From the NCBI GenBank assembly GCA_947062675.1, contig CAMSQM010000001.1, forward strand, positions 1 to 64,000: a stretch of DNA of 64,000 nucleotides. The letters are read 5' to 3'. Made by a program: the position numbers and the translations under genes. Shown here in pieces: positions 9,717-56,901 of the stretch (its first letter is position 1; the number at the start of each line of letters is the position of its first letter). This stretch comes from an uncultured Roseburia sp. GTDB lineage: Bacteria; Bacillota; Clostridia; Lachnospirales; Lachnospiraceae. Below the pieces are notes generated by a model. The model was not told the origin of the DNA and made no database searches. It was given only the letters and a program-made list of their open reading frames with translations.

Positions 9717-9777
9717 ATCAGGAAGTGACACAGAACGTATAAAGCTGGCTAACAGAATTTATTGGAGGGATTCGGTT

Positions 9778-10149: not shown

Positions 10150-10168
10150 CACTGATCAGCATTATAAT

Positions 10169-10193
10169 AAGGGCTGCTCTCCGGCAGCCCTTT
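10169..10193 (+). terminator. Terminator after the HPt gene
   Basis: AAGGGCTGC (10169-10177) pairs with GCAGCCCTT (10184-10192) and a short T run follows. It closes the ileS-glgP-HPt unit ahead of the first HD-GYP regulator. Confidence 0.7.
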
Positions 10194-10278
10194 CCGAATT
10201 AGCTACTTGACGCACAGGGGGAAAAATGTTACTTTAATAAAGAGTACGCTAGGTGGATAGTACCAAGGAGAGTTAAGG

Positions 10279-11361: not shown

Positions 11362-11388
11362 AAGATTGAGCGGGGCGTGCACAGAGAG

Positions 11389-11423
11389 GACAGCAGAACA
11401 GGAATATGTTTTGCTGTCTTTTT
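11389..11423 (+). terminator. Strong intrinsic terminator between regulator and kinase
   Basis: GACAGCAGAAC (11389-11399) pairs over 11 bp with GTTTTGCTGTC (11408-11418) around an 8-base loop, followed by TTTTT. It ends 19 bases before the kinase ATG, so the kinase needs read-through or a promoter inside this short space. Confidence 0.85.
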
Positions 11424-11442
11424 CGGCCCCTGGGTGGAGAGT

Positions 11443-12915: not shown

Positions 12916-12952
12916 AAGTCTTCTGGACATACATTATTAAGGAAGGTTCTAT

Positions 12953-14026: not shown

Positions 14027-14051
14027 AATGGTTGTGGTGAGGTGAGAGGCT

Positions 14052-14858: not shown

Positions 14859-14873
14859 GAAGGATATGATGAT

Positions 14874-15899
14874 ATGCATCGAATCAGAGTTTTGGTAGTG
14901 GACGATTCCCTGGTTTTCAGGGAGCTGCTGGTTCAGAATCTGAATAAGGACCCTGCGATCGAGGTCGTGGCGACGGCGAAAGATCCGTTTGAGGCGAGGG
15001 ATGCGATAATTGCACATAATCCGGATGTGATGACGCTGGACGTGGAGCTTCCAAGGATGAGCGGTATCGAATTTCTGCGCAGGCTGATGCCGCAGTATCC
15101 GCTGCGGGTGGTTGTGATCAGTGCGCTGAGCGACAAAGTGTTTGACGCGCTGAACGCCGGTGCGGTGGAATTTGTGGCGAAGCCTGTGATTTCGGACAGA
15201 AAGCAGATGGCGGACTTTATCCGGAATGAGCTGCTTGCCAAGATTAAAATTGCATCGACGGCCAGAATCAGCAGTATCAAGCGGGGCGTTCCGGTGCGGG
15301 AACACCATCTGAAAGTTGAGAATAAAAACCTTGTGGTGGCGATCGGGGCATCCACTGGCGGGACGGAGGCAATCTTTTCTGTGGTAAAGGACTTCGGACC
15401 TGATATTCCCGGCGTGGTTATCGTACAGCATATGCCTCCGGGATTTACCGAAATGTATGCGACGCGGCTCGATAATCAGTGCCGTGTCCGGGTAAAGGAG
15501 GCCAGAACGGGGGACCGGGTCCTGCCGGGGCAGGTGCTGATCGCTCCGGGCGGGGACAGCCATATGAGGCTGGTCCGCGTGAGCGGCGGCTATCAGGTGG
15601 AGATTCGTCCGGGACCGAAAGTAAACGGTCACTGTCCTTCCGTGGATGTTCTGTTTGACTCGGTTGCGAAGATGGCCGGGAAAAAAGCCGTCGGGATTAT
15701 ACTGACGGGAATGGGCGGGGACGGCGCGAAGGGGCTGCTCGCCATGCGGCAGGCCGGTGCTGAGACAATCGGACAGGATGAATCTACCTGTGTTGTCTAT
15801 GGTATGCCCAAGGTGGCATATGACCTGGGGGCGGTTAAGTACCAGGAGAAACTTCAGGGAATTGCGGGACGGATGTATGCCGTGCTGAATAAAATGTAG
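14874..15899 (+). CDS. cheB: Chemotaxis methylesterase/deamidase CheB
   Basis: 341 residues: a receiver (about 1-125, phosphoacceptor D56 in MTLDVELP), a linker, and the esterase domain. The catalytic Ser lies in AIGASTGG, the His in QHMPPGF and the Asp in GMGGDGAKG. It removes methyl groups from receptors when phosphorylated by CheA, and often deamidates Gln. It is in one operon with cheR and the CheY-like gene (15 bases). Confidence 0.95.
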   Translation: MHRIRVLVVDDSLVFRELLVQNLNKDPAIEVVATAKDPFEARDAIIAHNPDVMTLDVELPRMSGIEFLRRLMPQYPLRVVVISALSDKVFDALNAGAVEFVAKPVISDRKQMADFIRNELLAKIKIASTARISSIKRGVPVREHHLKVENKNLVVAIGASTGGTEAIFSVVKDFGPDIPGVVIVQHMPPGFTEMYATRLDNQCRVRVKEARTGDRVLPGQVLIAPGGDSHMRLVRVSGGYQVEIRPGPKVNGHCPSVDVLFDSVAKMAGKKAVGIILTGMGGDGAKGLLAMRQAGAETIGQDESTCVVYGMPKVAYDLGAVKYQEKLQGIAGRMYAVLNKM

Positions 15900-15914
15900 A
15901 AAGAGGGATCAGGT

Positions 15915-16313
15915 ATGAAGATTTTACTGGCAGAAGACGATTTTGCAACAAGAAAATTTATGGCGAATTTCCTTTCGCGGTACGGCGAGTGTGATGTGAC
16001 CGTGGATGGGATGGAGGCGGTGGACGCATTTATGATGGCGCTCGAGGACGAGGAGCCGTATGATCTGGTCTGCCTTGATATTATGATGCCGGTCATGGAC
16101 GGTTATCAGGCGCTCATGGGAATCCGCAATCTGGAAAAAGAGCGCAATATCCCGGAAGAAAAAGCGGTAAAAGTGATTATGACGACCGCGCTCAATGAGG
16201 AGAGAAATGTAAAAATGGCGTTTGAACTGGGATGCACCATTTATTCCGGAAAGCCGATCGACCAGGAACGGTTTGAGCAGGCGCTGAAAAAACTGGGGCT
16301 GGTTCAGGAGTAG
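15915..16313 (+). CDS. Single-domain response regulator, CheY-like
   Basis: 132 residues, one receiver domain. AEDD supplies the acidic pair, D55 in CLDIMMP is the phosphoacceptor, T in MTTAL and K in GKPI complete the site. It could be the CheY of this cluster, but it has an insert-like ALEDEEPYDL segment and no flagellar motor gene is nearby, so a phosphate-sink or relay role with the HPt protein is equally possible. GAGG precedes the ATG. Confidence 0.85.
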   Translation: MKILLAEDDFATRKFMANFLSRYGECDVTVDGMEAVDAFMMALEDEEPYDLVCLDIMMPVMDGYQALMGIRNLEKERNIPEEKAVKVIMTTALNEERNVKMAFELGCTIYSGKPIDQERFEQALKKLGLVQE

Positions 16314-16374
16314 GGGGAGGCCCGCGGCGGGCTGGTTCCGGCGGCGGGTGAAATAAGCAGGAAAGGAGAAAGCT

Positions 16375-18519
16375 ATGGCTGAGGAGTTTAGTACAGAGGG
16401 AATGCTGGATATGTATCTCTTCGAGAACGAACAGCTCTTAGAGTCGCTCCAGGAGACCGTCCTTGAGCAGAAGGATGCAGAGTGCTTTGATGAGGACAGT
16501 ATCAATGAGATATTCAGGGCCATGCATACGATCAAGGGTTCCTCTGCAATCATGATGTTTGACAATATAACAGCTGTGGCGCATAAGCTGGAGGATATTT
16601 TTTATTACCTGAGGGAGTCGCATCCGGAGGAAGTTCCGCATCTGGAACTGGTGGATCACGTGCTGGAGGTCTCCGATTTTATCTCAAATGAAATGGATAA
16701 GATCAAGGGCGGGAGTCAGGCGGACGGCGATGCGACGAATCTGATTGCTGGAATGGATAAGTTTTTAAAAAGTATCCAGACAGGAGGGGCTTCCGGAAAA
16801 GCGGGAGTGCCGGAAACAAAGCACGAGGAGCCGAAGCATTTTTACATAGCGCCGGTGGCGACGAGTGCGAGTCATTTTTATAAAATTTTTATTACGTACC
16901 ATCCGGGAACGGAGCTTGTGAATATTCACGCCTATAAGGCGGTGTATGCGTTAAAAGAGCTTGCGGAGGATCTGCTTTATTCCCCGGAAGATATCGTCTC
17001 CAACGAGGAGAGCGCGGAGGTAATCTTAAATGACGGTTTCCGCGTGCTTCTTCAGGCACAGTGCAGCGAGGAGGATATTCGTAAGATTATCGGGGTCGGC
17101 TATGACGTCAAAAAGGTCGATATTTATGAGTGCAGCGGGGAGGAGTTTCTTCAGGGGTTTGACTTTGGGGAGAGCGGACCGCAGATTGATCTGGAATCAG
17201 GCGTGGAAGAAATTGAACAGAAAGCGGCAGCCAAAAGTGAGCAGCCCGCTCCTGCGGCGGCAAAGCCGGCGATGGCTCCGGGAGATTTTGTAATTAAGCC
17301 CAAGGAGTCCGGCAGACCGAAAAAGCTTGTGAAAGAAAAGCCAAAGCCCTCTGAGAAGGCGAGTTTTATCAGCGTGAGCGTGAATAAAATGGATATGCTC
17401 ATGGACTTAATCGGGGAGCTCGTCATTTCCGAGTCCGTTGTGCTGCAGAACCAGGATCTCAGGGTTCCGGGGCTGAATCTTACAAATTTCAATAAAGCGG
17501 CGGCACAGATGTCCAAGATCTCGACAGATCTGCAGAATGTGATTATGTCGATGCGAATGGTTCCGCTGACGAATACGTTCCAGAAGATGAACCGTATTGT
17601 ATTTGACGTCTCGAGGAAGCTTGGCAAGGATATCGAGTTTGAGATGATCGGGGAGACCACGGAGGTGGATAAGAATATTATTGAGCATATCTCGGATCCC
17701 CTGATGCATCTTGTCCGGAATGCGGTCGACCACGGTATAGAGACCGCGGAGGAGCGCGCTGCCAGCGGCAAGACCGAGAAGGCAAAAGTGACGCTCTCCG
17801 CTAAGACCGAGGCTGGAAAGGTCTGGATCAGCGTGGTAGATAACGGCAAGGGGCTTGACCGGGATAAGATCCTGAAAAAAGCCAGAAACCAGGGAATTCT
17901 CGATGAAACCAGGCCGGATTCCACATATTCGGACAAGGAAATCTATCAGTTTATCACCCTGCCGGGCTTTTCGACAAATGAACAGGTGACGGAGTATTCG
18001 GGGCGCGGGGTCGGTATGGATGTCGTGGTCTCCAATATTCAGGCGATCGGTGGCAATCTGGACATTGAGAGTATTCCGGGCGAAGGCAGCACGATGAACC
18101 TTAAGATACCGCTGACTCTGGCGATTATCGACGGAATCGTGATGGAGACCGGAAGATCCACCTTCGTGATTGAGATGAATGTTGTAAAAGAATTTGTCAG
18201 TGTGACCGAGGATATGATGATTCATGAGCCGAACGGGGATGAGTATGTGATGCTGCGGGGAGAATGTTTCCCGGTTCTGCGGCTCGGGGAGTGGTATCAT
18301 CTGACGGATTACAAGAAGAACGTCGAAGACGGCATGATGGTGATCCTTGAGCTGGAAGGCAGGGCGATCTGTGTTCTGGTTGACAGGCTGATCGGCAAGC
18401 AGGAGATCGTCGTAAAACCAATTCCGTCCTATGTCAAAAAGGTAAAGGGGCTGACCGGCTGTACACAGCTCGGCGACGGCAGTATCGCGCTGATACTTGA
18501 TCCCAGCGGTCTGGTGTGA
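16375..18519 (+). CDS. cheA: Chemotaxis histidine kinase CheA
   Basis: 714 residues with the full five-domain layout. P1 HPt has H51 in HTIKGSSAIM. A P2-like regulator-binding domain covers about 160-260. An Ala/Pro/Lys-rich linker follows, then the P3 dimer helices near 330-390. The P4 ATPase has HLVRNAVDHGIE, DNGKGL and GRGVGMDVV. The P5 CheW-like domain fills the last 140 residues. It phosphorylates CheB and the receivers in response to the receptor. AAAGGAG precedes the ATG. The 61 bases before it hold a short inverted G/C-rich stretch but no gene. Confidence 0.96.
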   Translation: MAEEFSTEGMLDMYLFENEQLLESLQETVLEQKDAECFDEDSINEIFRAMHTIKGSSAIMMFDNITAVAHKLEDIFYYLRESHPEEVPHLELVDHVLEVSDFISNEMDKIKGGSQADGDATNLIAGMDKFLKSIQTGGASGKAGVPETKHEEPKHFYIAPVATSASHFYKIFITYHPGTELVNIHAYKAVYALKELAEDLLYSPEDIVSNEESAEVILNDGFRVLLQAQCSEEDIRKIIGVGYDVKKVDIYECSGEEFLQGFDFGESGPQIDLESGVEEIEQKAAAKSEQPAPAAAKPAMAPGDFVIKPKESGRPKKLVKEKPKPSEKASFISVSVNKMDMLMDLIGELVISESVVLQNQDLRVPGLNLTNFNKAAAQMSKISTDLQNVIMSMRMVPLTNTFQKMNRIVFDVSRKLGKDIEFEMIGETTEVDKNIIEHISDPLMHLVRNAVDHGIETAEERAASGKTEKAKVTLSAKTEAGKVWISVVDNGKGLDRDKILKKARNQGILDETRPDSTYSDKEIYQFITLPGFSTNEQVTEYSGRGVGMDVVVSNIQAIGGNLDIESIPGEGSTMNLKIPLTLAIIDGIVMETGRSTFVIEMNVVKEFVSVTEDMMIHEPNGDEYVMLRGECFPVLRLGEWYHLTDYKKNVEDGMMVILELEGRAICVLVDRLIGKQEIVVKPIPSYVKKVKGLTGCTQLGDGSIALILDPSGLV

Positions 18520-18554
18520 CGTGCTGGCGGAATGTAGAAAGGAGCGGTATCGAT

Positions 18555-19097
18555 ATGGATGAATTACAGGAATTTACGGATCCGTACAGCGCGGATACGG
18601 GGCAGGAGGAAGAGCAGGAGAAATATGTGACCTTTAAATCCGGAAATGAATATTTTGCGATACGGATCGAGTATGTGAGCGAAATCATTCAGATTCAGCC
18701 GATTACCATGATTCCGGAGAGCGAGGATTATGTAAAGGGGCTTATCAATCTGCGCGGAAAGATTATTCCGGTTATAGATGTGAGACTGCGCTTCTGCCAG
18801 GAGCCGTTTGAATACAACGACAGGACCTGCATTATCGTGATCAATGTCAATTCGACGATTGTTGGTCTGGTGGTGGAAAAGATTGCAGAGGTAGTTGAGA
18901 TCAGGGAGAAAAAGACGCTGCCACAGTCTTCTGTCGGGCGCTCGGATAAGGCGCAGAATAAGTATGTATTTGCCATTGGAAAAGTGGGCGATTATGTGAA
19001 ACTGCTGCTGGATCCGGAGAGACTGCTGAATGATGTGGAAGGACCGTCAGCAGAACAGGCCGGCGGAGAACCTGCTTTGAAGGAAGAGGAGAAATAG
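18555..19097 (+). CDS. cheW: Chemotaxis coupling protein CheW
   Basis: 180 residues; links the receptor to CheA. The CheW beta-barrel covers about 20-155, with [29 protein letters not shown] and the later VFAIGKV strands. A 25-residue acidic tail follows (EEK end). AAAGGAG at 18538-18544 selects ATG 18555 over an in-frame ATG at 18516 that lies just inside the end of cheA. Confidence 0.93.
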
Positions 19098-19101
19098 TGC
19101 T

Positions 19102-20457
19102 ATGAATAACATGAAAATGACAACAAAACTGATTATCGGATTTTCAATTCCGGTTGTTTTAAGTCTGGTGCTTGTCTATATCGGGGCAGGCTCTCTCAGG
19201 GGGATCCTGCAGGCGCCGGATAAGGAACGCTATTATGAATATGCGATTGCAATCTATGCGACTGTGACGGTTGTCGCCGTCATTATCTCAGTGGCGATTG
19301 CGACTTCTCTGGTGAAAGTGATCAGCAAATCGGTGGAGCAGCTTTCCGGTGCGGCAAAGCAGATAGCGATGGGAAATACGAACATCACCATGCACAAGAT
19401 ACATAATGATGAGTTCGGCGAGCTTGTGGATGAATATTCAAAGGTAATCGACAATATCAAGTATCAGGCAGGCATCGCGGAGGAGGTATCCAGAGGAAAT
19501 CTTACCGTTCAGGTAAGTCCGAAATCCTCGGACGATATCCTGGGCAATTCTCTCAAAAAACTGGTGGAGGATAATCATAACGCGATCAGCAATATCAGCG
19601 ATGCGTCCCGCCAGGTGACGACGAGTTCCTCACAGGTGGCGAGTGCGAGCGAGTCCCTGGCACAGGGATCCACGCAGCAGGCGAGCGCGATCCAGCAGAT
19701 CACGGCGTCGATCAATGAGATCGCGGAGAAGACAAAACAGAACGCAGAGGAGGCAAATTCCGCGGCGAAGCTGGTCAATGAGGCAATTGATGATGTAAAA
19801 CAGGGAAATGTTCAGATGCAGGACATGATGTCTGCGATGGAGGATATCAACCGTTCTTCCGAGAGCATTGCAAAGATTATCAAAGTGATCGACGATATCG
19901 CGTTCCAGACCAATATTCTGGCTCTGAATGCGGCGGTGGAGGCTGCGCGCGCCGGGGAGGCGGGCAAAGGCTTTGCGGTCGTGGCGGAGGAAGTGAGGAG
20001 TCTTGCGGCAAAGAGCGCCGCGGCGGCGTCCGAGACGGCGGAACTGATCGAGGATTCCATCCAGAAGGTGGAAGCCGGTTCCAGAATTGCAGATGAGACG
20101 GCGCGGGCACTGGAGACGATCACCAGGATTGTGCAGAAGAGTGAGGTGATTATCCACGGAATCGCGGAGTCCTCGAATTATCAGGCGACGGCAGTGGCAC
20201 AGATTGATCAGGCGGTGGCGCAGGTATCCCAGGTAGTACAGACCAATTCCGCGACGAGCCAGGAGTGTGCGGCAGCCAGCATGGAGCTGTCGGGCCAGGC
20301 GACAAGGATGCGCGAACTTCTTTCTATTTATAATGTGGGAAGCGACGGCGGGCCGGTTTTATCCGGGCGGGACAATGATTATCAGGTGTCTCCCGTCACA
20401 GACACCAGTGTAAACGAACAGATTATCTCGCTGGGAGATGAGTATGGCAAATACTGA
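19102..20457 (+). CDS. Methyl-accepting chemotaxis protein with minimal ectodomain
   Basis: 451 residues. Membrane spans lie at about 9-30 and 48-70, so only about 17 residues are outside. A HAMP domain follows (about 70-122), then a long coiled coil with the conserved tip [19 protein letters not shown] at about 270-290. With no outside sensor domain, it probably senses through the membrane, through HAMP, or from the cytosolic kinase partners. It is the last gene of the chemosensory cluster, 4 bases after cheW. Confidence 0.93.
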
Positions 20458-46225: not shown

Positions 46226-46876
46226 ATGACAATTGCATTCTGGGGTGCAGGCGTGCAGAGTGGCACAAATGCAAACATGCGCGCAGTGGCGGCCGTGTTT
46301 TCCGACCTGTGTCCGGATATTCGTATCGGACTGTATACAGCGGGCGGAAAAGCAGGCGGTATCTGCCGAAATAAAAACTATAAAGGTAGTAACAAAGCCG
46401 CAGGACGGAAAGATTCGTCCGCGCTGGCAGATATCCGCTTTGTGGATTGTGGAAGTGGAATGAGCGGGGAGAAGCGTCGTATATTGCGGAAGGCAGAGAT
46501 TGTTGTCGTCAATATAAGGCAGGAGGAAGAAGAGATCCGGCGTTTTTTCCTTGAAGAATCACATCTTTTACCCGGAAGTCCGATTCTGATCGGTAATTAT
46601 TGCGGACAGTCAAAATTCAGCAGACGGTATCTGGAATGTGTATATCGTGCAGAGCCAGAGAAAGTATCGGTTCTTTCGAGAAATGTTGAATTTGAACAGG
46701 CGGCAGCCTGCGGCAGAGTATACCGTTTTGTGAAGAAGGAGAGCTGCGCCCCAAAAAATCTGCGAAATCAGCAGTTGCTTGAAGAGCTGAAAGGAATTTC
46801 GGGGCTGCTTTTGCGGAATGCAGAGACACTGTATGGCAGAGATGTGCCATGGAATAAAAATATAGAAAAACAATGA
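46226..46876 (+). CDS. TadZ/CpaE-like degenerate ParA protein
   Basis: 216 residues. The N-terminus IAFWGAGVQSGTNANM has the place and shape of a deviant Walker A of the MinD/ParA fold but lacks the Lys residues, as in many TadZ proteins. Later FVDCGSGM and VVNIRQEEEEI match the strand order of that fold. TadZ places Tad machinery at the cell pole and need not hydrolyse ATP. GGAGA before 46226 selects this start over upstream in-frame ATG 46133. It opens the Tad-like operon; the assignment rests on fold pattern and context. Confidence 0.6.
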   Translation: MTIAFWGAGVQSGTNANMRAVAAVFSDLCPDIRIGLYTAGGKAGGICRNKNYKGSNKAAGRKDSSALADIRFVDCGSGMSGEKRRILRKAEIVVVNIRQEEEEIRRFFLEESHLLPGSPILIGNYCGQSKFSRRYLECVYRAEPEKVSVLSRNVEFEQAAACGRVYRFVKKESCAPKNLRNQQLLEELKGISGLLLRNAETLYGRDVPWNKNIEKQ

Positions 46877-46897
46877 GAAGATAAAGGAGGACTTTGT

Positions 46898-47065
46898 ATG
46901 GAACAGGTAATGAAACATTATGGAAATGCAATTCTTGCGGTAATTGTGCTTATGGCACTCGGAGCAATTCTTGTCGCGGCGCTTTCTTCGGACGGATATG
47001 TCGCAACCGAGTTCAAAGGGGCACTGATGGACTTTTTCGATAATATGAATAAGCTGAAAAGTTAA
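46898..47065 (+). CDS. Small single-span protein, possible pilin-like subunit (55 aa)
   Basis: MEQVMKHYGNAILAV starts a 55-residue protein with one span (about 10-30) and a short polar tail ending NKLKS. AAAGGAGG at 46884-46891 is an excellent ribosome binding site. It has no G-xxxx-EY cleavage site of Flp pilins. Its first nine residues resemble those of two later genes of the operon (50272 and 50428). Confidence 0.75.
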   Translation: MEQVMKHYGNAILAVIVLMALGAILVAALSSDGYVATEFKGALMDFFDNMNKLKS

Positions 47066-47087
47066 GGCTGGGGATGAAGGAGAAAAT

Positions 47088-48152
47088 ATGCGGGAAGTAA
47101 TTACATTTGAACCGACAGCAGAGCAGTTCGGAATCTTCTGGAAATATCTTTCCTTAAAAGATGTAACCGATGTGGATTATAATGGCTCTGCGCTCTGGAT
47201 AACTGATTTAAAGAAAGGCAGATATCCCGCAAGGGAAGAGGTGACGGAACAGTTTCTCGATACGTTTACACACAATATTTCCAACTGTGTCAACCGGCAG
47301 TTTAATAATGCCAATAAAGTGCTGGAAGCCGATACGAAGGAGCTGCGCGTCAGTATTATCCACAATTCCGCGGCGGCATCCGGGACCAGTATCTGTATCC
47401 GCCGGTCTCCCTGTATTGTGCGCAGCAGTATTCAGAAAATGCTGGGAGAAGGGTATTGTCCGGAGGATATTTTAAAGCTTCTCATCAACTGTGTCGCTGC
47501 AGGAATGAATTTTGTGTTCGGCGGGGAGCCGGGAGCAGGAAAAACGGAGTGTGCAAAGTTTTTTATGCAGTTTATTCCGAAAGAGGAGAGAGTGATCACA
47601 ATTGAAGATTCACTGGAAATTCATTACAGTGATATTCATCCGGGAGCTGATGCGGTGGAACTTAGGATTGGTCCGGGATTCAGTTACACAGATGCCATCA
47701 AGGCGAGTCTCCGGCAGAATCCAAAATGGCTGATGCTTTCCGAGGCGCGGTCGGTGGAGGTGACATCCCTGCTGGAGCAGTGGAGCACAGGGGTAAACGG
47801 ATTTACCACGATCCATCTGGATGATGTGAGGAAGCTGCCGGACCGCATTCAGAATATGATGAATAATGTCAACGATGCAGACCGGATGGAGAACAGGATT
47901 TACCGGTATGTGGATGTGGGGATTTTAATCCGTTGTATTCATGAGCCGGGGGGAGGTACCAGAAGGTATATGGATCAGGTCTGTTTTTTCAGCAGGGAAG
48001 GAACGGAAAACCGGATTTATATGCTTGTAAAAGACGGGGAAATGATTTCCCGGGAACTTCCTCCGGAAATCCGGAAGCGCTTTGCTTTTGCGGGCATTAC
48101 AGAACCATTTTGCTGTGAGCACTGGCAGAGATATCTGAAAGAGGGGAAATAA
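47088..48152 (+). CDS. CpaF/TadA-type secretion ATPase
   Basis: 354 residues. Walker A GGEPGAGKTE is at about 144-153, an ITIEDSLEIHY Asp box follows, Walker B is WLMLSEARSVE, and the His box is FTTIHLDD. The N-terminal domain is shorter than in standard TadA. It should power assembly of pilins or secretion by the membrane protein next to it. The stop TAA overlaps an ATG at 48152 (see the slippery site). Confidence 0.88.
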   Translation: MREVITFEPTAEQFGIFWKYLSLKDVTDVDYNGSALWITDLKKGRYPAREEVTEQFLDTFTHNISNCVNRQFNNANKVLEADTKELRVSIIHNSAAASGTSICIRRSPCIVRSSIQKMLGEGYCPEDILKLLINCVAAGMNFVFGGEPGAGKTECAKFFMQFIPKEERVITIEDSLEIHYSDIHPGADAVELRIGPGFSYTDAIKASLRQNPKWLMLSEARSVEVTSLLEQWSTGVNGFTTIHLDDVRKLPDRIQNMMNNVNDADRMENRIYRYVDVGILIRCIHEPGGGTRRYMDQVCFFSREGTENRIYMLVKDGEMISRELPPEIRKRFAFAGITEPFCCEHWQRYLKEGK

Positions 48153-48231
48153 TGAGGACAAAAAAGCCGGAAAAAAGCGGATATGGGAGAATCTCAGACT
48201 CCTGAATCCTAAGAACCTGGAAAAGGAGGTG
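48152..48231 (+). other. Frameshift site ahead of the TadB/C-like gene
   Basis: ATG 48152 overlaps the ATPase stop and reads M-R-T-K-K, then closes at a TGA at 48203-48205. At 48160-48166 the sequence is A-AAA-AAG in that frame, the slippery heptamer used by dnaX. GAGGGG lies about 13 bases upstream. A -1 slip would continue as AGKKRIWENLRLLNPKNL and join the next frame with no stop. A real indel in the A6 run (7 A would restore frame) or a sequence error are alternatives. Confidence 0.6.
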
Positions 48232-49701
48232 TATGTTTACGGATATCATTTTTCCTGGAAATCACATGCGCTGCTGATGACCGGGACACTGGCCGGAATC
48301 AGTGCGGTGGGGATACTGTTTCAGCTTAAGGCGGTATATTTTACGGTGATAGTGGCAGCGGTGGCCTGCGTGCTTCCAGTCCTTGTGCTGGATATGTACC
48401 GGAAAATGTATGAACAGAAGCGATTTGGGGATGCGGCAGCTTATATGGAGCAGATGCTGTATTCTTTTCAGAAGACGGGAAAAGTGATCAGCGCGCTGAA
48501 GGAAACGAGGGAGATTTTCGACGACGGACAGATGCGGAAAACGCTGGATGAAGCGGTTTTTCATCTGGAGGCGGGAAAAACGGGACATCGTGAGGGGATC
48601 CTGAAGGAAAGTCTGCAAATTATAGAGCAGTCTTATGGGTGTACGAAAATACACATGGTACATGATCTGCTTGAGAATGCGGAGGAATACGGAGGAAATG
48701 TCGAGGATTCTATTCTGCTTGTCCTGGAGGATATAGAGCGCTGGAAACAGAGAGGATACCATCTTCATGCGGAAAAAAAGCGAAGCCATACGGACAATGT
48801 GATTTCGATTGTTGTCGCGACAATTTTGTGCGCAGTTTCTCTGTATGTGCTGGATGCGATGAAACAGATGTTTTCGGTGAAAGATTCATCTGACATATTC
48901 CAGATTCGTCTGATACAGGCATCATCTGTTCTTTTCATTTTGTTTTTATTGCATGTGTTTGTAAAAAGCGCGAGAAATCTGACGGACGACTGGCTCTGGG
49001 ATACAGCATTTCATGAGACGGATTATATTCTCAGGAGTTATGAGCGGGTTACGGGATATAATGCAAAAATGGAGCGGAAGAAAAGCAGTCTGATTGCGAT
49101 ACCGTTTTTTCTGATGATGGGAATTGCTTTTTTTGCAGGTAAACATACAGCCTGTCTGCTTCTGCTGTTGCTGGCAGTATTTCTTCAGTCTCAGCACAGG
49201 ACAGGATATCATCTTGCGAGAAGGGATGTGACAGAGGCGCTGTATCTGGCTCTGCCGCAGTGGCTTATGGGAATGGCTCTGCTGCTCCAGAATAATAATG
49301 TACAGGTATCTGTCACAAAATCTATTGCGGATGCGCCTCCGGTACTCCACAGAGAGCTGCAGCAACTGCTGGAGAGGCTTCGGCAGACACCGGGAAAGCT
49401 GCAGGCCTACACAGGCTTCTGCGGAAGCTTCGACCTCCCAGAGGTTTCGAGCTGCATGAAAATGCTCCATGCAGTTTCGGAAAATGGTACAGGTAATGTG
49501 CGTTCCCAGATGGGGCATCTGCTTGAGCGCGTTGCCAGGATACAGGGAATGGCAGATGACATCACAAATGAAAAAATTGCATTCCGGATGAAAATGCTCT
49601 TTTCCTATCCGGTAGTTGCCGCCACGGTAAAACTGTTGCTGGATCTGACTGTGGGAATGGTGCTTATGCTTCAGTTGCTGGGAAGTGCGGGAGGAGTATA
49701 A
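48229..49701 (+). CDS. TadB/TadC-like inner-membrane platform protein
   Basis: 490 residues from the first in-frame start-type codon. Hydrophobic spans lie near 13-50, 200-222, 237-258 and 295-320, with two at the end. The two helical cytosolic regions (about 60-190 and 340-460) resemble the two T2SSF domains of TadB and TadC, here perhaps fused. GTG 48229 sits inside its own AAAAGGAGGTG ribosome site, so it cannot be a normal start. The frame is open and looks coding upstream (RLLNPKNLEKEV), which points to an N-terminus supplied by ATG 48152 through a -1 shift. Confidence 0.75.
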   Translation: MYVYGYHFSWKSHALLMTGTLAGISAVGILFQLKAVYFTVIVAAVACVLPVLVLDMYRKMYEQKRFGDAAAYMEQMLYSFQKTGKVISALKETREIFDDGQMRKTLDEAVFHLEAGKTGHREGILKESLQIIEQSYGCTKIHMVHDLLENAEEYGGNVEDSILLVLEDIERWKQRGYHLHAEKKRSHTDNVISIVVATILCAVSLYVLDAMKQMFSVKDSSDIFQIRLIQASSVLFILFLLHVFVKSARNLTDDWLWDTAFHETDYILRSYERVTGYNAKMERKKSSLIAIPFFLMMGIAFFAGKHTACLLLLLLAVFLQSQHRTGYHLARRDVTEALYLALPQWLMGMALLLQNNNVQVSVTKSIADAPPVLHRELQQLLERLRQTPGKLQAYTGFCGSFDLPEVSSCMKMLHAVSENGTGNVRSQMGHLLERVARIQGMADDITNEKIAFRMKMLFSYPVVAATVKLLLDLTVGMVLMLQLLGSAGGV

Positions 49702-50037
49702 ATGAAACATGTGATCGGGGCGTATTGTACGCTGACTATATTGATGCTCAATCTTTTTTTGTGTATTGCGGTACTCACAGTAAGCGGAGATGTGGCTGTG
49801 GCGCGGGAGTACAAGGCGGCTGTCGTTGCCGAACTGGAAAACAGCAATTTTAATCCAATGGTTGTAGAAAGCTGCAGACAGGAAGCACAAATGCGCGGAT
49901 ATACTCTTACGGTAGAGAATTGTATTTATGATGAATATGATGATATCTGTACGGCGGAGGTGATACTGGAATATAAATATCAGATTCCACTGCTGGGTAT
50001 TTCGCGCACGAAGGTGACGAAGGGAATAGCGAGATAA
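49702..50037 (+). CDS. Small membrane-anchored pseudopilin-like protein (111 aa)
   Basis: 111 residues with an N-terminal span (about 5-28) and a soluble part of about 80. One span plus a small outside domain fits a minor pilin of the TadE type, but no sequence motif confirms it. C56-C74 or nearby Cys could form a disulfide. GGGAGGAG lies just before the ATG, which touches the stop of the previous gene. Confidence 0.65.
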   Translation: MKHVIGAYCTLTILMLNLFLCIAVLTVSGDVAVAREYKAAVVAELENSNFNPMVVESCRQEAQMRGYTLTVENCIYDEYDDICTAEVILEYKYQIPLLGISRTKVTKGIAR

Positions 50038-50142
50038 GGAATACGGATCTGTGTGCGCACAAAAAGAAATGAGGATCGGAAGCTGCTGGAATCTGTGTAT
50101 TATGACCTAGCACAAAAAGAAGTGCAGAAATGGAGGTGGTAA

Positions 50143-50256
50143 ATGAGCTTTGAAATAATCACAGGAGAATTTGGGGAGGCGTTTCTGGGACTTCTGGCAG
50201 GCGGTGCAGCAGCTGGTATGCTGGTATATCTGCTGGATTATGTGTCCCGCATCTGA
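50143..50256 (+). CDS. Tiny membrane protein (37 aa)
   Basis: 37 residues starting MSFEIITGEFGEAFLG with one Gly/Ala-rich span (LLAGGAAAGMLVYLL). GGAGG seven bases before the ATG supports translation. Its place between Tad-like genes suggests a subunit or chaperone; no homology is recognised. Confidence 0.6.
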   Translation: MSFEIITGEFGEAFLGLLAGGAAAGMLVYLLDYVSRI

Positions 50257-50271
50257 AAAAGGGGGTCAGGA

Positions 50272-50418
50272 ATGGAACATATTGTGGAGCATTATGGGAC
50301 TGGATTTCTGCAGCTGATATCCGGAGTGCTGCTGATTGCATTGTATTTTTCTTTTCTGAATCCGGGCGGGGTTTTGAGTGATATAGTCGGATGCTATATA
50401 AATGGAATTTGCGGATAG
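50272..50418 (+). CDS. Tiny single-span protein (48 aa), paralogue of the 55-aa protein
   Basis: 48 residues starting MEHIVEHYGTGFLQL with one span (about 12-32) and a short tail ending NGICG. The N-terminus matches the pattern ME-xx-xx-HYG of the 55-residue protein at 46898. GGGGGT lies before the ATG. Probable small subunit of the same structure. Confidence 0.65.
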   Translation: MEHIVEHYGTGFLQLISGVLLIALYFSFLNPGGVLSDIVGCYINGICG

Positions 50419-50427
50419 GAGAGGATT

Positions 50428-50913
50428 TTGAAACAGATAGCTGAGATATACGGAAAATTTCTGCTGGATGCAGTTCTGGCAGTGAGTCTGCTACTGTTTG
50501 TATTCTGTGGCATGACGGATACAGAGGGGAACAAAGGTATTTTTGCCATAATCGGGGCACATCTGGATGTGACAGGTACAGAAGATACGGTCAGCAATGA
50601 ATTTGCAGTATTTCAGGAGGAGGCTAAGAGGAAGCCGCCGGTGATATTGTATGTGGATTCAGGGATGATCTATACCGGGAGACACATTTTTTCGGATTTT
50701 ATCAGGGCAGAAGACAACGAGGGAAGGGAATTGTCTGTACGGCTGCTCGGGGTCTGGAAACCACAGGAGGAATTTGAGGCGGTTTTGCCGGCTGTCGGGG
50801 AAGTGGAATTTTCCAGCCCTGGAATTTACCGTCTAAAGGTCACTGCGAAGGATGACAGAAACAGAAGAACAATAAGTGTGATTCAGATACCAGTCAATCA
50901 GAGGAGGGAATAA
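50428..50913 (+). CDS. Membrane-anchored protein with Ig-like (DUF5011-type) domain
   Basis: 161 residues. It starts with TTG (MKQIAEIYGKFLLDAV), and its first residues share the x-YG pattern of the small proteins. One span covers about 11-29. The outside part (about 70-158) has PPVILYV, IRAEDNEGRELSVR and SPGIYRLKVTAKDDRN, the strand pattern of DUF5011-like Ig folds. GGAGAGG sits four bases before the TTG. Possibly a minor pilin carrying an adhesive domain; inferred. Confidence 0.65.
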   Translation: MKQIAEIYGKFLLDAVLAVSLLLFVFCGMTDTEGNKGIFAIIGAHLDVTGTEDTVSNEFAVFQEEAKRKPPVILYVDSGMIYTGRHIFSDFIRAEDNEGRELSVRLLGVWKPQEEFEAVLPAVGEVEFSSPGIYRLKVTAKDDRNRRTISVIQIPVNQRRE

Positions 50914-50914
50914 A

Positions 50915-51523
50915 TTGAAAAATGCAGTTATGATTTTCGTCAGTGTGATAGTAGGAATATTTACTCTGGCAGTGATTATGACGATTCTGGGACGAATGAA
51001 CCGGAGCACAGAGCTTAAAAGCAGCCTTTCGACAGTTATGGAGAAAACCGTCACGCATATGATGACTGAGAATCGTCAGCAGACGGACACCAGCGGCGAA
51101 GTTGTGGCTGAGAGTATGGAAATGCTCTCTGTTGCAACGGACGCGGATTCCGGTATAACACTTCAGGTGATGAAGGCAGATCTGAAAAAGGGGATTCTGG
51201 CAGTTCGTGTACAGGAGGAATTCCGGCAGCTGAACGGGAGTACAGGTGTGGAAGAATGGGACAGGACGATTCTCTGGGACAGATGTGAGATACAGGAGCC
51301 AGAGTATTTCAGTGTACGGTTTTACCGGACAAAGGAGGAAATGAACCGCGGAGGGGACTGCTATAAAAAATTTCTGATCCGTGGGGGAGACAGGATCCGG
51401 ATGCCGGAAGAGCCCGGTTCTGCAGCAGAAGGGTTTCTGGGCTGGAAAGATGTTAACGATTATATTGCAGATTTCTCTCTGCCAGTAGAGCAGGAGAGGG
51501 TATATTATGCGCAGTGGGGATAA
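50915..51523 (+). CDS. Membrane-anchored protein ending in an InlB-repeat-like motif
   Basis: 202 residues with a TTG start after GAGGAGGG. A span covers about 4-26; the rest should be outside. The end reads GFLGWKDVNDYI ... YYAQWG, the GW and YAQW hallmarks of InlB B-repeat/Flg_new domains that build the next protein. It overlaps that gene by 17 bases, so the two are translated together. Confidence 0.65.
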   Translation: MKNAVMIFVSVIVGIFTLAVIMTILGRMNRSTELKSSLSTVMEKTVTHMMTENRQQTDTSGEVVAESMEMLSVATDADSGITLQVMKADLKKGILAVRVQEEFRQLNGSTGVEEWDRTILWDRCEIQEPEYFSVRFYRTKEEMNRGGDCYKKFLIRGGDRIRMPEEPGSAAEGFLGWKDVNDYIADFSLPVEQERVYYAQWG

Positions 51524-54500
51524 ATGGAAAGGAATGAGAGAAAACAGACGGCGGGGAAAAATGATACGGACAGTTGCTCTGCTTCTGTTTTTAGGTGTGC
51601 TCCTGTCAGGGGGAAAGGAGCTTAGAGCGTCCCAGGATGCGGTGATGGCTGGCAGGGTGGGGTATTTTACGGTAAAGATTGACGGGGACCGGCAGACCAG
51701 GATGAAAATAAAGGTGGATTATGCTTCGACCGATGAGAGCAGACCGCAAAAGGTGAAATTATCTGTTGTTGCCGGAGAGACTGTGAATAATCATAAACTG
51801 ACAATCCGGAAAGTATCGGAAACCAGACAGGGATCAACTCAGGATGTGAGCAAAGCATACAGGGATGAAAACGGCAGGTATGTTACAGGAACGAACAGTA
51901 GTGGCGGGCTTATTTACAAAACAGCTAATTATGTGGTATTTACGGTACAATTTTCTTATGAAAGAGAAGCGTATACGTATGCGTCCGGACGCAGGGAGGT
52001 CTGCAATGTGGATAACCGGTTTAACAGTACTGTATATGATGAAAAAGACGGATGGATGAATAAGGGAAGCGAGACGCTCAGCAGAAAGGTTTATCACGCA
52101 CCCAGGTCAGAAACATTTTCCATGCAGGTCAATTTATCCCAGACAGGAATTTACAGTACAAACGCCCCGCATTTCGATAATACGGTGGAAGGGGTTTATG
52201 TTGTTGATCTTGATCACCCGGGACTGATGGTCAGTTATGATGCCAACGGAGCGACCGGAGGGGCGGTCACGGGGAGTAAAAAAATTGTGTACAACAATAG
52301 CGCTGACCTTCACAATTTTTCCACATTCGGACTGGTGAAAACCGGATTCCGGAGAAAGGATGGTGCGGAATGGAATACAAAGGAAGACGGGACAGGGAAG
52401 GCTTTTGATCAGGATAAAGGGTATGAGGCGACTGCTTACAGAGACTTTGCTGATGGGACAGAATTTACATCAAAATCTGTGACAATGTATGCACAATGGA
52501 TTACAGGAACTCCTGTTCCTGAGTATGGTACGATTACGTACCATGGAAACGGTGGCGTGTGCACAGTGGATCAGCAGACAGAGGAGATCAGATCTCCGTC
52601 TGATTATGTGCAGCTGAAAAATATCAATGGAGGGGAAGTGTTTCACACAGATTCCGGACTGATGTGGGATGGTTTCTGGTATCCTTCACCTGTGAGATCT
52701 GCGGATGACAGATACCGGTTCGGAGAATATTATCATCTGACAGAGAGCGTGACGCTGTATGCTGGGTGGATCCCGAAAGAATATGATGTAATCTACGAGC
52801 CGAACGGGGGAGAGGGAAGACGCGCGGTTCAGCGCTGTGACCGGGGTGGAAATTACCGGTTTTATGATCCGTATGAGGATTGTGGATTTACCGCACCTGC
52901 GGGGAAGCGTTTTATCGGCTGGGGAATCAGTCGTGCTAAACCGTATTATAGTGCAGGGGGGATGTTTTCTGATAATCTTGTGGGTACAGACAGAACATCC
53001 ATGATACTGTATGCGATCTGGGGAAATGATTATCAGGTTGTTTATCTGCAGGATACGGGGGAACTCTGGGATCCCGGAAATCCGACAGGAAGCCTGGATA
53101 CAGGAACAGACGGGATAACATTTCCGGACGGCTTTATCAGCAGGATTAATCAGACAAAAGTTTATGTGGCAGGAAAAGAGAGAACGCTGAAGTTTCTCGG
53201 TGCGTCACAGCATGAATATGGAAATATTTATACGATATTTTCCGGAAACGGGCTGAGCAGGAAAGGTTATTTTTTTGCAGGCTGGGCAGGAACACCGAGA
53301 GAGCTGGAGAGTAAACTGCAGCAGCAGGGCATACTGAATTATGACGGAAACTATGTGAAAGTGCCGTCAATGAAGGAACTGAAGCGGGTCCTCAGCAGTT
53401 GTGTGTATCTGGAAGGAGGAAAGCAGTTTCAGGATCTGCCGATGATATATGGACATTCCGTATATTCATATGAAGATGGGCAGAAAATGCATCAGGTAGT
53501 GCCGCTTTTTGCACAGTGGATACCGGTTCCGGGGGAATATACCGTCACATTTCGTCCTAATGGTGCATATGGTACGGATTATGTTATGAAATGTAGTTAC
53601 TGGCAGGCGTATGGATTTCCGGGAATACCGCAGGAATGGCGTACGCAGGGAATATTTTCAGGCTGGAAGAGAAGTGGAGAGGGGAATGGACGTATCTTTG
53701 AGCCGGGAGAAGTGTTCCAGGATATGGGAACAGCGGTTTTTGATGCACAATGGACAGATCAGTATACAATCCGGTTTGATGCAAACGGAGGGAACGGGAA
53801 TATGGAGGATATGCAGCTTTCGATAAACGGAAGGGGTGAGCTTGCAGAAAATCGTTTCCTGCTCCGCGGATGTGAATTTGAGGGCTGGAATACAAGGGCG
53901 GACGGAAGTGGAAAAAGTTTCCGGAATAAGCAGCTGGTGCGATACAGCGATTTTGAAACGGAGGGGGATACGGTCGTACTGTATGCGCAGTGGAAAGGCC
54001 CCTATACTGTGACTTATTGTCTTAACAATGGAAGCAAAATTGAGCGGGAGTTTCAGTATGAATACGGAATGTCGTGCAGCATCAGAGAGCCGGAGGAGGT
54101 ATTTCCCGGGTGTACAATGGGGAGGCAGCGGTTTCTGGAATGGAATACGACGGCAGATGGAACGGGAAAAGCATGGAAACCTGCAGATGTTTACGGGAAA
54201 ATGCAGCCTCTCACTCTGTATGCGGTCTGGATACAAACCCACACGATTACCCTGCATGCCGGTAAAGGAATTGAATCTGTAACCGGAACAGGAGAATATG
54301 AGACGGGAACCACAGTGACGGTTTCGGCAAATGTAAAACCGGGATATCACTGGAACCACTGGACAGGCACTTATTCGTCCGGGATGATGGTATTTCAGTT
54401 CAGAATGCCGTCGCAGGATGTGGATATGACGGCAGAGGGGGAGGCAAATCAATACACGATCCGGTTTGACCCGGACGGGGGCATGGAATTATCACATATT

Positions 54501-55526
54501 GAAGATATTGTGACACAATACGATGTGGATGTGACATTGCCGGATGGGGCAGAAACATATCGCAAATATACGAGAAATGGTGAGAATGTGACGGATGAGG
54601 TGCAGGCGGGAGTTTTGCCGCAGGCAGGTGAAGCTGGGATAAGCGGGAATGCGGCACCGCAGGAACAGAAGGAAATCCGGGATATGGCTGGTACAGTTAC
54701 GCCGGGAGAGAAGGACGAAGAGCGAAACATTTCAGCAGAAGAAAAGAGAGAGCCGGAAAAGCCCGGAGAAGACCTGCCTGAAAAGGCGCATAGGGAGGAG
54801 AGGGCATATCCGTCCGTGTTTCTGGGATGGGCGCTTTCGGATGGAAGAGGAGCGCTCACACCGCAGTGGACAGCGGGAGAAACAGTGAAAAATCTGACGG
54901 AGGAGGAGAATGGGATTGTGACGCTGTATGCAGTCTGGGATGACTGCCCGTGGATTGTGGCGGAAGATCTCTATTATACATTGGAGCAGGCAAAAAGCGG
55001 ATATATAACGGAGGCGGAGCTGCTGAGACATGCCACCGCATCAGATCGTGAAGACGGAAGTCCGATTCTTCCGGGAATTCACGGAAATGGAACGTCGTTT
55101 TCCATTCCTGATTATCAGGAGAGTGATTTCACACAGTTTGAACACGACGGGAGCTGTACAGAAAATCTGACAGTTGTGGACAGTGCAGGGAGTACTTATA
55201 AAAAGCAGATCACTGTTTATGTTGTGGATACGACAGCGGCAGCGGTAAAGCAGGAAGGAACCACGCGGTTTATCAGTGAAAAATACCTGAATGCTGCATA
55301 TGAGAGAGGAGGTCTGAGGGAAGAATCTGTCTGGAAAAGGAGACCGGAATACGCGGCGGTACTGAAAAGTGCATTTGAGAACTTTAAAAATGGCACTCCG
55401 GAACAAAGTTATCGTATCACTCATGAAACAGTGCTGGAAATGAAGGAATTTATCAGAAACTATGGAGCTGGAAAAACAAAAGATAGTTACGGGCTTCTGA
55501 GGTTTTATCAGAAATTTTTGCAGTGA
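51507..55526 (+). CDS. Large secreted protein with InlB/Flg_new-type repeats
   Basis: 1339 residues. A basic start, then a hydrophobic signal segment (about 19-40). Repeats with YDANGG-like starts and LYAQW/YAVW ends lie near 242-329, 343-418, 427-501, 509-668, 678-745, 753-825, 833-904 and 983-1140. A Gly/Glu/Pro-rich insert sits near 1020-1105. After the last repeat comes an Ig-like segment (HATASDREDGS ... VVDSAGSTY) and a helical end. No LPxTG or other sorting signal is present. Such repeats are typical of surface adhesins; attachment to the Tad-like structure is inferred. GGAGAGG seven bases before ATG 51507 supports this start. Confidence 0.82.
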   Translation: MRSGDKWKGMRENRRRGKMIRTVALLLFLGVLLSGGKELRASQDAVMAGRVGYFTVKIDGDRQTRMKIKVDYASTDESRPQKVKLSVVAGETVNNHKLTIRKVSETRQGSTQDVSKAYRDENGRYVTGTNSSGGLIYKTANYVVFTVQFSYEREAYTYASGRREVCNVDNRFNSTVYDEKDGWMNKGSETLSRKVYHAPRSETFSMQVNLSQTGIYSTNAPHFDNTVEGVYVVDLDHPGLMVSYDANGATGGAVTGSKKIVYNNSADLHNFSTFGLVKTGFRRKDGAEWNTKEDGTGKAFDQDKGYEATAYRDFADGTEFTSKSVTMYAQWITGTPVPEYGTITYHGNGGVCTVDQQTEEIRSPSDYVQLKNINGGEVFHTDSGLMWDGFWYPSPVRSADDRYRFGEYYHLTESVTLYAGWIPKEYDVIYEPNGGEGRRAVQRCDRGGNYRFYDPYEDCGFTAPAGKRFIGWGISRAKPYYSAGGMFSDNLVGTDRTSMILYAIWGNDYQVVYLQDTGELWDPGNPTGSLDTGTDGITFPDGFISRINQTKVYVAGKERTLKFLGASQHEYGNIYTIFSGNGLSRKGYFFAGWAGTPRELESKLQQQGILNYDGNYVKVPSMKELKRVLSSCVYLEGGKQFQDLPMIYGHSVYSYEDGQKMHQVVPLFAQWIPVPGEYTVTFRPNGAYGTDYVMKCSYWQAYGFPGIPQEWRTQGIFSGWKRSGEGNGRIFEPGEVFQDMGTAVFDAQWTDQYTIRFDANGGNGNMEDMQLSINGRGELAENRFLLRGCEFEGWNTRADGSGKSFRNKQLVRYSDFETEGDTVVLYAQWKGPYTVTYCLNNGSKIEREFQYEYGMSCSIREPEEVFPGCTMGRQRFLEWNTTADGTGKAWKPADVYGKMQPLTLYAVWIQTHTITLHAGKGIESVTGTGEYETGTTVTVSANVKPGYHWNHWTGTYSSGMMVFQFRMPSQDVDMTAEGEANQYTIRFDPDGGMELSHIEDIVTQYDVDVTLPDGAETYRKYTRNGENVTDEVQAGVLPQAGEAGISGNAAPQEQKEIRDMAGTVTPGEKDEERNISAEEKREPEKPGEDLPEKAHREERAYPSVFLGWALSDGRGALTPQWTAGETVKNLTEEENGIVTLYAVWDDCPWIVAEDLYYTLEQAKSGYITEAELLRHATASDREDGSPILPGIHGNGTSFSIPDYQESDFTQFEHDGSCTENLTVVDSAGSTYKKQITVYVVDTTAAAVKQEGTTRFISEKYLNAAYERGGLREESVWKRRPEYAAVLKSAFENFKNGTPEQSYRITHETVLEMKEFIRNYGAGKTKDSYGLLRFYQKFLQ

Positions 55527-55620: not shown

Positions 55621-56901
55621 TTAAGTGGGATTATCGTCCGTAAATCTGGATTCCGGCTTTTTGATATAGATTTTTTCTATACGGTTTTTGTCCATTTGTT
55701 CGACCCGGAGAAGAATATCGTCGTCTGTAATTATAATCTCATTCTTTTCCGGAAGGTGATCCAGCAGACCGATGAGATATCCGCCAATGGTGTCATAATC
55801 CTCGGAGGTAAAGTTTAAGTCCAGAGCGTCACTGAGATTTTCGAGATTCGTGGAACCAAGGACGATATATTCCCTTTCATTGAGCTGGACAACCGGATCT
55901 TCTTCATCTGAATCATACTCGTCACGGATTTCACCGACGATTTCTTCAAGGAGGTCTTCGAGTGTGATCAGACCCGCAGTTGCGCCATATTCGTCGAGAA
56001 CGATGGCAAGCGAGATGGAAGATTTACGCATCTCAATGAAAAGCTCCGCCGTGTTTTTGTGTTCATAAGTAAAGTAAGGTTCACGCATAATATCACGGAC
56101 AGAAAACTGCTCTCTGTTCTCGTAAAGCAGAAGATCTTTCATATTCAGAATGCCGACAACATTATCGGTAGTATCCTCAAAAACCGGGAGTCTGGTAAAT
56201 TTATCCTGATGAAAAATAGCGATCAGCTCGTCATAAGAACTATTGATATCTGCGAAAGTCATATCAATCCGCGGCACCATGACTTCTTTTGCCTGTGCGT
56301 CGCCAAAATCAAAGAGATTATTGATCATGGTGTGCTCTTCTGATTCGATGACACCTGATTCTTTACTGACATCCACGATTGTCCGGAGTTCTTCCTCTGT
56401 CATCAACTGCTCTGCAGCGTTTGGATCGACACGGAGCAGAAACAGAAATCCCATGGAGAGCTTGTTGATAATATAAATAAACGGAGTCAGTATTTTAATC
56501 AGAAATTCTATGCTCCCGGAATAAAGCAGCGAGATTTTCTCGGCATGGATTGTCGCAAGTGTTTTTGGAGATATTTCACCGAAAATCAGGATTAAAATTG
56601 TCAGAATTCCGGTTGCAATGCCGGCACCCACACTTCCAAGAAGCCGGAGAGCCAGGGAAGTGGCGATGGAGGATGCAGAGAGATTGACAATATTGTTGCC
56701 GATCAGAATGGCGGAAAGCATTCTTCCGGAATCATCGGTAATGCGGAGCACCCGCTGGGCGCGCCTGTCGCCTTCTTCTGCTAATGCCCGCATGCGGATA
56801 CGGTTTACAGTTGTAAGGGCCGTTTCCGCAGACGAAAAAAATGCAGAAAGAAGCAAAAGAATGATCAAAAAAATAATCTGGTATATGGCGTCTGAGTCCA
56901 A
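55621..56901 (-). CDS. CNNM/CorC-type membrane protein with CBS domains
   Basis: 426 residues. The DUF21/CNNM membrane domain (1-185) has FSSAETALTTVNRIR and ILIGNNIVNL. Two CBS domains follow (about 200-320) and a CorC_HlyC domain ends it (about 340-415). Relatives export or regulate Mg2+; 'hemolysin' is an old label. TTG start at 56899-56901 with GAGGTG eight bases ahead. Its promoter overlaps the 3' end of guaB. Confidence 0.9.
   Translation of the reverse strand: MDSDAIYQIIFLIILLLLSAFFSSAETALTTVNRIRMRALAEEGDRRAQRVLRITDDSGRMLSAILIGNNIVNLSASSIATSLALRLLGSVGAGIATGILTILILIFGEISPKTLATIHAEKISLLYSGSIEFLIKILTPFIYIINKLSMGFLFLLRVDPNAAEQLMTEEELRTIVDVSKESGVIESEEHTMINNLFDFGDAQAKEVMVPRIDMTFADINSSYDELIAIFHQDKFTRLPVFEDTTDNVVGILNMKDLLLYENREQFSVRDIMREPYFTYEHKNTAELFIEMRKSSISLAIVLDEYGATAGLITLEDLLEEIVGEIRDEYDSDEEDPVVQLNEREYIVLGSTNLENLSDALDLNFTSEDYDTIGGYLIGLLDHLPEKNEIIITDDDILLRVEQMDKNRIEKIYIKKPESRFTDDNPT

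Follow-up and report, generated by a model that had tools for sequence, protein, structure and literature searches.

A conserved operon of gut Lachnospiraceae encodes a Tad/Flp-related machine with candidate leaderless pilins

Here we describe a ten-gene operon at positions 46226-55526 on the + strand of contig CAMSQM010000001.1 from an uncultured Roseburia sp. (Lachnospiraceae; assembly GCA_947062675.1), of which we analysed positions 1 to 64,000 (henceforth referred to as the window; coordinates given for the operon genes are on the + strand). By computational sequence comparison, the operon encodes a type IV filament machine with a CpaF/VirB11-type ATPase and one PilC/GspF-like platform protein. 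We consider it probable that this compact, Tad/Flp-related machine builds its filament from pilins that are made without a leader; with slightly less assurance, we favour the broader view that a whole branch of type IV filaments has dispensed with the prepilin peptidase, its major and minor pilins being translated in mature form with methionine as their N-terminus. The genes (ORF1 to ORF10) overlap or lie close together, with intergenic distances of -17 to 105 bases. An initial annotation made from the sequence of the window had already recognised this one-strand layout, together with six small single-span proteins (ORF2, ORF5, ORF6, ORF7, ORF8 and ORF9), a single-ATPase, single-platform machine of Tad-like type, and a 1339-residue InlB-repeat protein, and each of these was confirmed, the machine by family and profile matches. 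It overlooked the leaderless, Flp-like character of ORF2, a start motif common to ORF2, ORF6, ORF7 and ORF8 in relatives, and the fact that a canonical Tad locus is present elsewhere in this genome. The annotation suggested a surface fibre or a secretion device; we infer that the genes would act jointly as a surface fibre.

The candidate motor is ORF3 (47088-48152; 354 amino acids (aa)), an assembly ATPase of the PilB/TadA/GspE family that belongs to its CpaF/TadA-VirB11 group. ORF3 matches the Pfam family T2SSE (PF00437) at 5.2e-18 and, among PDB profiles, GspE-like proteins (7.5e-33), VirB11 (2.3e-31) and CpaF (2.2e-28). The NCBIfam models for VirB11 (1.1e-25) and TadA (TIGR03819; 7.8e-20) were both matched below their cut-offs, the latter with 71 bits against a cut-off of 373. 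In phylogenetic analysis the ORF3-type ATPases were monophyletic and lay apart from 13 canonical CpaF proteins, with support of 100/97 and 100/99 and with long-branch warnings. CpaF-like ATPases of a third kind, which belong to neither the canonical Tad nor the ORF3 type and do not form one clade, were seen at loci L226-L231 (genomes G103, G050, G038 and G110). Apart from T2SSE in ORF3 and the InlB-type repeats in ORF10, no Pfam match above cut-off was obtained for any of the other eight operon proteins.

The candidate platform is ORF4 (48229-49701; 490 aa, GTG start), a single protein with two helical lobes; the pair of one-domain proteins TadB and TadC is not present. The T2SSF family was matched in 3 of 23 ORF4 relatives (best 3.3e-4), and the structure model of ORF4 matches PilC, OutF and EpsF, so that ORF4 provides the PilC/GspF-like platform expected of a member of the type IV filament superfamily. 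Around the start of this gene (window positions 48150-48240), an ATG that overlaps the stop codon of the ATPase gene (48153) is out of frame with ORF4, in-frame similarity to relatives extends upstream of the GTG (48229), and an ATG is in frame in L137, L138 and L139; the start region reflects either an assembly error in a run of A or a real difference.

In a sample of 250 genomes of the family, 31, the Roseburia genome itself included, hold a homologue of the ATPase at E<=1e-30. At E<=1e-60, a match was found in 4 of 391 genomes sampled from the class, two of them from outside the family. For comparison of gene content we assembled 106 loci, which comprise the best 80 of 529 relatives in a scan of named genomes, 25 of the 32 non-own places in the family sample (fetched with flanks; 7 were left out) and the window; four duplicate pairs leave 102 distinct loci, and genes in the relatives were called with a custom script rather than a published gene finder. 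The loci kept from the named-genome scan come from Roseburia, Agathobacter, Lachnobacterium, Acetitomaculum, Lachnoclostridium, Petralouisia and others, and Lachnoclostridium phytofermentans is among the species that carry the system. Gene order is kept in relatives, so that the loss of synteny which would have refuted the initial annotation is not seen: among the 80 loci with enough flank (window included), the platform gene is present in all 80, ORF5 in 78, ORF9 in 76, the giant gene ORF10 in 53, ORF8 in 47 and ORF1 in 13, and after removal of the four duplicates (n = 76) the corresponding counts are 76, 74, 72, 49, 45 and 13. Recurrence of this gene content across the 80 full loci argues that the operon is not a chance arrangement. 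Several genomes or record sets hold two copies of the whole system (G103 and G224; L140 with L156, L154 with L155, L139 with L148, and L200 with L203).

The key protein for the proposed filament is ORF2 (46898-47065; 55 aa), which looks, from its sequence, like a Flp-like pilin in mature form that begins at its own methionine and is the candidate major subunit. An ORF2-type protein is encoded upstream of the ATPase in 96 of the 106 loci (101 copies, 94 with an ATG start) and was not found under our search criteria in the other 10, some of which are on cut contigs. The family members are 50-79 residues long, with a membrane helix from about residue 9, and share a fixed N-terminus (M, K/E, I/V at position 4, E/K at 6, E/Q/H at 7, Y at 8 and G/S at 9); in the window, a strong ribosome-binding site directly precedes the ATG. 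The prepilin site G-x4-[ED] was absent from the first 14 residues of all 72 unique ORF2 N-termini, and in 58 of the 101 copies no other in-frame start occurs before a stop codon is reached (within 12 codons in 51), which together argue that the absence of a leader is not an error of start choice. Moreover, the distance from the start to the aromatic residue is fixed in ORF2, in contrast to the variable leaders of canonical Flp pilins, which span 10-23 residues when chosen by the cleavage site itself. The initial annotation had stated that the operon lacks a classical Flp pilin, which is correct for pilins with a leader and incorrect insofar as ORF2 is Flp-like. Tandem ORF2 genes of identical protein sequence precede the ATPase gene in L040, L204, L207 and L209, and in L242 (G489), which is outside the family, the ORF2-like pilin gene follows the small genes rather than preceding the ATPase and is itself followed by a gene for a 745-residue protein.

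The likeness of ORF2 to mature Flp pilins was assessed at the level of families and profiles. Mature Flp pilins read Q-G-M-V-E-Y-G-L-I-I after the glycine at which the precursor is cut, and hhalign comparison of the ORF2 family with 29 canonical Flp pilins gave a probability of 90 with the ORF2 EEYG aligned on the mature VEYG. This alignment scored 32.6, above all 100 decoys made by block shuffling (mean score 17.3, sd 3.9, maximum 31.4) and above the reversed controls (17.4 or less). A profile of mature Flp pilins was, in addition, run over all 3729 starts in the loci that are preceded by a ribosome-binding site: the top match was an ORF2 (E 5.6e-5), and the top ten comprised eight ORF2 proteins and two other proteins carrying the start motif described below. 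Measured against 172 membrane-helix starts, the area under the curve for this profile was 0.82 for ORF2, 0.68 for the other motif proteins and 0.37 for the remaining operon starts.

Across relatives, ORF2, ORF6, ORF7 and ORF8 begin alike, with M-[KE]-x-[IV]-x-E-E-[YF]-G, a start motif that hardly occurs anywhere else in the loci. A profile of the first 30 residues of ORF2 matched 291 of the 3729 starts at E<=1; 102 of these are ORF2 proteins (the training set, hence circular), 187 are in the downstream operon and two are elsewhere, one of them a further ORF2 copy. The downstream matches fall into three size classes that correspond to ORF6, ORF7 and ORF8, and two or more motif proteins occur in 83 of the 89 loci that have the full stretch. 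Position 8 is occupied by an aromatic residue (Y, F or W) in 69 of 73 unique ORF2 sequences, 48 of 57 ORF6, 70 of 75 ORF7 and 37 of 43 ORF8. In the shorter motif proteins as well as in ORF2, a ribosome-binding site immediately precedes the fixed start. The other subunits likewise begin at the membrane helix without a class III leader, and some motif proteins, at 33-37 aa, are scarcely longer than one such helix. The N-terminus is the part of a pilin that the machine handles, which is why it is common to the major and minor pilins of classical systems; by the same logic, the common motif suggests that ORF2, ORF6, ORF7 and ORF8 enter the same machine. In the window, ORF6 (50143-50256; 37 aa) and ORF7 (50272-50418; 48 aa) are single-span proteins with degenerate motifs, the former in a copy that is also two residues longer and the latter reading MEHIVEHYG, and ORF8 (50428-50913; 161 aa, TTG start), a candidate minor pilin, combines the motif MKQIAEIYG with a possible Ig-like exposed domain.

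Two further small proteins may be pilin-like. ORF5 (49702-50037; 111 aa), a candidate minor pilin, yielded an AlphaFold2 model (mean pLDDT 93.5) in which an N-terminal helix of 46 residues is combined with a second, short one and a sheet of three strands, and this arrangement resembles the layout of pilins, whose head is carried on a helix some 50 residues long (PMC10790768). No family match was obtained for ORF5, including as a minor pilin of the TadE/TadF type. ORF9 (50915-51523; 202 aa, TTG start) combines a membrane helix and a small domain with half an InlB-type module; PF09479 was matched in 14 of 20 ORF9 relatives (best 1.7e-8), the window copy not being among them and its module being seen by pattern. 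The giant ORF10 (51507-55526; 1339 aa), a secreted InlB-repeat protein and candidate adhesin, matches PF09479 at 1.5e-16 and PF18998 at 2.2e-7 and has, by eye, a hydrophobic, signal-like N-terminus. In L194 and L197 an ORF9-like start is fused to the repeat region, a single protein there giving matches to ORF9 as well as to the giant, and in L052 an ORF9-like start stands on a 921-residue protein that has one repeat-like pattern and no match to the giant. A C-terminal stretch is, by eye, common to the ORF9-type or fused proteins and the giant. The InlB-type module of ORF9 and the fusions of ORF9 to repeats suggest that the giant works with the ORF9-type subunit, and ORF10 is probably an adhesin that the machine serves or displays through it. 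The initial annotation had proposed that modules are common to small proteins and the giant, which holds for the InlB-type module of ORF9; its Ig-like reading of ORF8 is weak (PF16403 at 0.21; among 21 ORF8 relatives, Y_Y_Y in three and PKD in one, best 0.0066).

These components can be assembled into a working model. ORF3 would act as the motor and ORF4 as the membrane platform; ORF2, the presumed major subunit, would be translated in mature form, with its methionine about two residues before the would-be cleavage point, and would insert as a single-span protein with its N-terminus inside and without a leader. The motor may then turn the platform, which would scoop subunits into the growing filament by their short E-E-Y-G terminus. 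ORF8, and probably ORF6 and ORF7, would enter the same machine as minor subunits, ORF5 and ORF9 may be further pilin-like subunits, and ORF5, ORF8 and ORF9 might cap the fibre. ORF10 would leave the cell by means of a signal peptide of its own, and the ORF9-type subunit would hold or display it at or near the tip, consistent with a role in adhesion.

Leaderless subunits would also explain why the operon is missing a prepilin peptidase. As the initial annotation had noted, neither a secretin nor a prepilin peptidase was matched among the ten proteins (Pfam, NCBIfam); the latter was absent from contig C1 as well, and three were found elsewhere in the genome. Four T2SSE proteins over the cut-off are encoded in this genome: ORF3, a PilB-like protein, a CpaF-like protein on contig C30 and one protein on contig C2. 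The C30 locus (L057, G000:C30) has a CpaF of 410 aa, two platform-size genes and a leadered Flp1-like pilin (PF16982, 5.1e-23), with A24 peptidase matches on the same contig, which makes the window operon a second, different machine in the cell. A genome with the system and without a peptidase was sought by co-occurrence, and none was found. As A24 peptidases occur in every genome with the system that was tested for them, independence from the peptidase is a prediction from the missing site. Canonical CpaF at E<=1e-80 is present in 242 of the 250 family genomes, and its co-occurrence with the system is, being near-universal, uninformative. One of the two genomes outside the family is Clostridium tyrobutyricum-like, a species with a single A24 peptidase gene, and its T2SSE proteins other than that of the system have the sizes of PilB and PilT; with no other CpaF-size ATPase, no canonical Tad motor accompanies the system there, to go by size and score.

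Several observations weigh against a filament of leaderless pilins. One of the 100 decoys reached the hhalign probability of 90, not the score; only 3 of 26 single ORF2 sequences matched Flp_Fap at E<=0.1 (best 16 bits against a cut-off of 32.2); NCBIfam assigned no Flp family to ORF2 relatives; and in place of the E5-like glutamate the window's own ORF2 has K or H. The window copies of ORF6, ORF7 and ORF8 were not significant for the start motif (E 25, 5.3 and 30); since they are degenerate, their assignment follows from gene order and from the close relatives L137 and L150, whose counterparts do score. In the fold search with ORF5, pantothenate synthetases ranked above the only pilin. An in-frame start lies further upstream in 43 of the 101 ORF2 copies, A24 peptidases are encoded elsewhere in each of the 31 family genomes that have the system, as well as in the two from outside the family, and the giant was not found by homology in 27 of the 80 full loci.

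The alternative that we regard as unlikely, yet worth keeping in view, is a device for secretion that resembles the type II pseudopilus, with the short subunits forming a piston which stays within the cell wall and helps to export or position the giant and other proteins. The very short subunits (37, 48 and 55 aa) are in keeping with a piston, as are the position of the giant gene at the end of the operon, its own signal-like N-terminus and the presence of a giant homologue in 53 of the 80 full loci. However, the loci from which the giant is missing keep both motor and platform, ORF2 is closest to Flp, which is a true pilin, and the fusion of an ORF9-type start to the repeats favours display on the device.

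It is improbable that the motif proteins are fixed membrane parts, such as a ring or anchor around the platform, rather than polymerising subunits. The shortest of them, at barely one membrane span, would suit such a role, and the filament itself is a prediction. The likeness of ORF2 to mature Flp argues otherwise, as do the tandem identical ORF2 copies in some relatives and the position of ORF2 before the ATPase; in many flp-tad loci flp precedes the ATPase gene.

We give very little credence to the idea that ORF2 and its kin are ordinary pilins whose true starts lie upstream, or which are cut at another site by the A24 peptidases of the genome's Tad or type IV pilus loci. Those peptidases and the upstream in-frame starts are what such an idea needs, and mannose-sensitive haemagglutinin loci, which lack a peptidase, may borrow one (PMC6668835). 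Set against this are the complete absence of the G-x4-[ED] site from the unique N-termini, the copies that cannot be extended to another start, the ribosome-binding sites directly before the fixed start and the fixed register to the aromatic residue. Equally hard to credit is a part of a conjugation or DNA-uptake system, to which the higher score of ORF3 for VirB11 than for TadA and the match of 1 of 26 ORF2 relatives to a pilin-like conjugal transfer family (0.0023) would point, since the operon has a PilC/GspF-type platform, which VirB systems are not known to have, no other transfer protein was matched among the ten (no relaxase, coupling protein, VirB4 or other VirB, the rest of the genome not having been searched for these), and a convergent DUF21/CBS gene follows downstream in 27 of the 106 loci, as at a fixed chromosomal site.

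That neighbouring gene, for a DUF21/CBS-type membrane protein, lies at 55621-56901 in the window, and its retention in relatives argues that the locus is chromosomal and not part of a mobile element. At the other end of the operon, ORF1 (46226-46876; 216 aa) has a P-loop-like start without a canonical Walker A motif and, from its presence in 13 of the 80 full loci and an alignment of 15 sequences, appears to be an accessory protein of near relatives only. Its initial annotation as TadZ found no support, as no Pfam, PDB or TadZ match was obtained; hhalign comparison with the genome's own TadZ candidate, as a single sequence, gave a probability of 2.0. Further upstream, window positions 9670-20457 hold, by eye, a chemotaxis-like cluster and response regulators with HD-GYP-like domains.

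If the system is as we propose, it would break the rule, stated in PMC5389465, that pilins are 'always synthesized as precursors', and with it the status of the prepilin peptidase as a universal core part, the enzyme being counted in PMC10790768 as one of four core components of type IV filaments. No account of leaderless pilins was found in the literature searched, which did not cover subscription papers and preprints. Pilin finders look for the leader, and such loci therefore escape them. A natural leaderless system would reveal which part of the pilin N-terminus is truly needed by motor and platform, would offer a simple operon for rebuilding a filament and would give common Lachnospiraceae of the gut a further device, likely one for adhesion.

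Among known systems, the Tad/Flp (type IVc) pilus has a similar CpaF/TadA-type ATPase, a small Flp-like subunit with EYG before its membrane helix, a compact operon and adhesion as its likely role. In contrast to it, the window operon has no leader, prepilin site, TadV, RcpC or secretin, unites two lobes in a single platform protein where Tad systems have TadB and TadC, has an ATPase in a separate clade, and adds the motif proteins and the InlB-type modules. In a cell with a single membrane, no secretin is to be expected. The canonical Tad locus on C30 is of the same machine class and in the same cell as the window operon, and differs in its leadered Flp1-like pilin, A24 peptidases, separate platform genes and longer CpaF. 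Tad-like loci of Clostridia without any prepilin-signal protein have been reported (Imam et al. 2011, PMC3244431); these possess tadV and rcpC homologues, unlike the window operon, and leaderless pilins are not proposed in the part of that paper available to us. The Com pilus (type IVd), a minimal type IV filament, is alike in having pilins, one ATPase and one platform, but needs a prepilin peptidase and leadered pilins (PMC10790768). VirB11-type ATPases share a similar core with ORF3, whereas the window operon has no other VirB match and has a PilC/GspF-type platform. The machine is of the known type IV filament class, and it would be in the biogenesis of its subunits that it differs from what is known.
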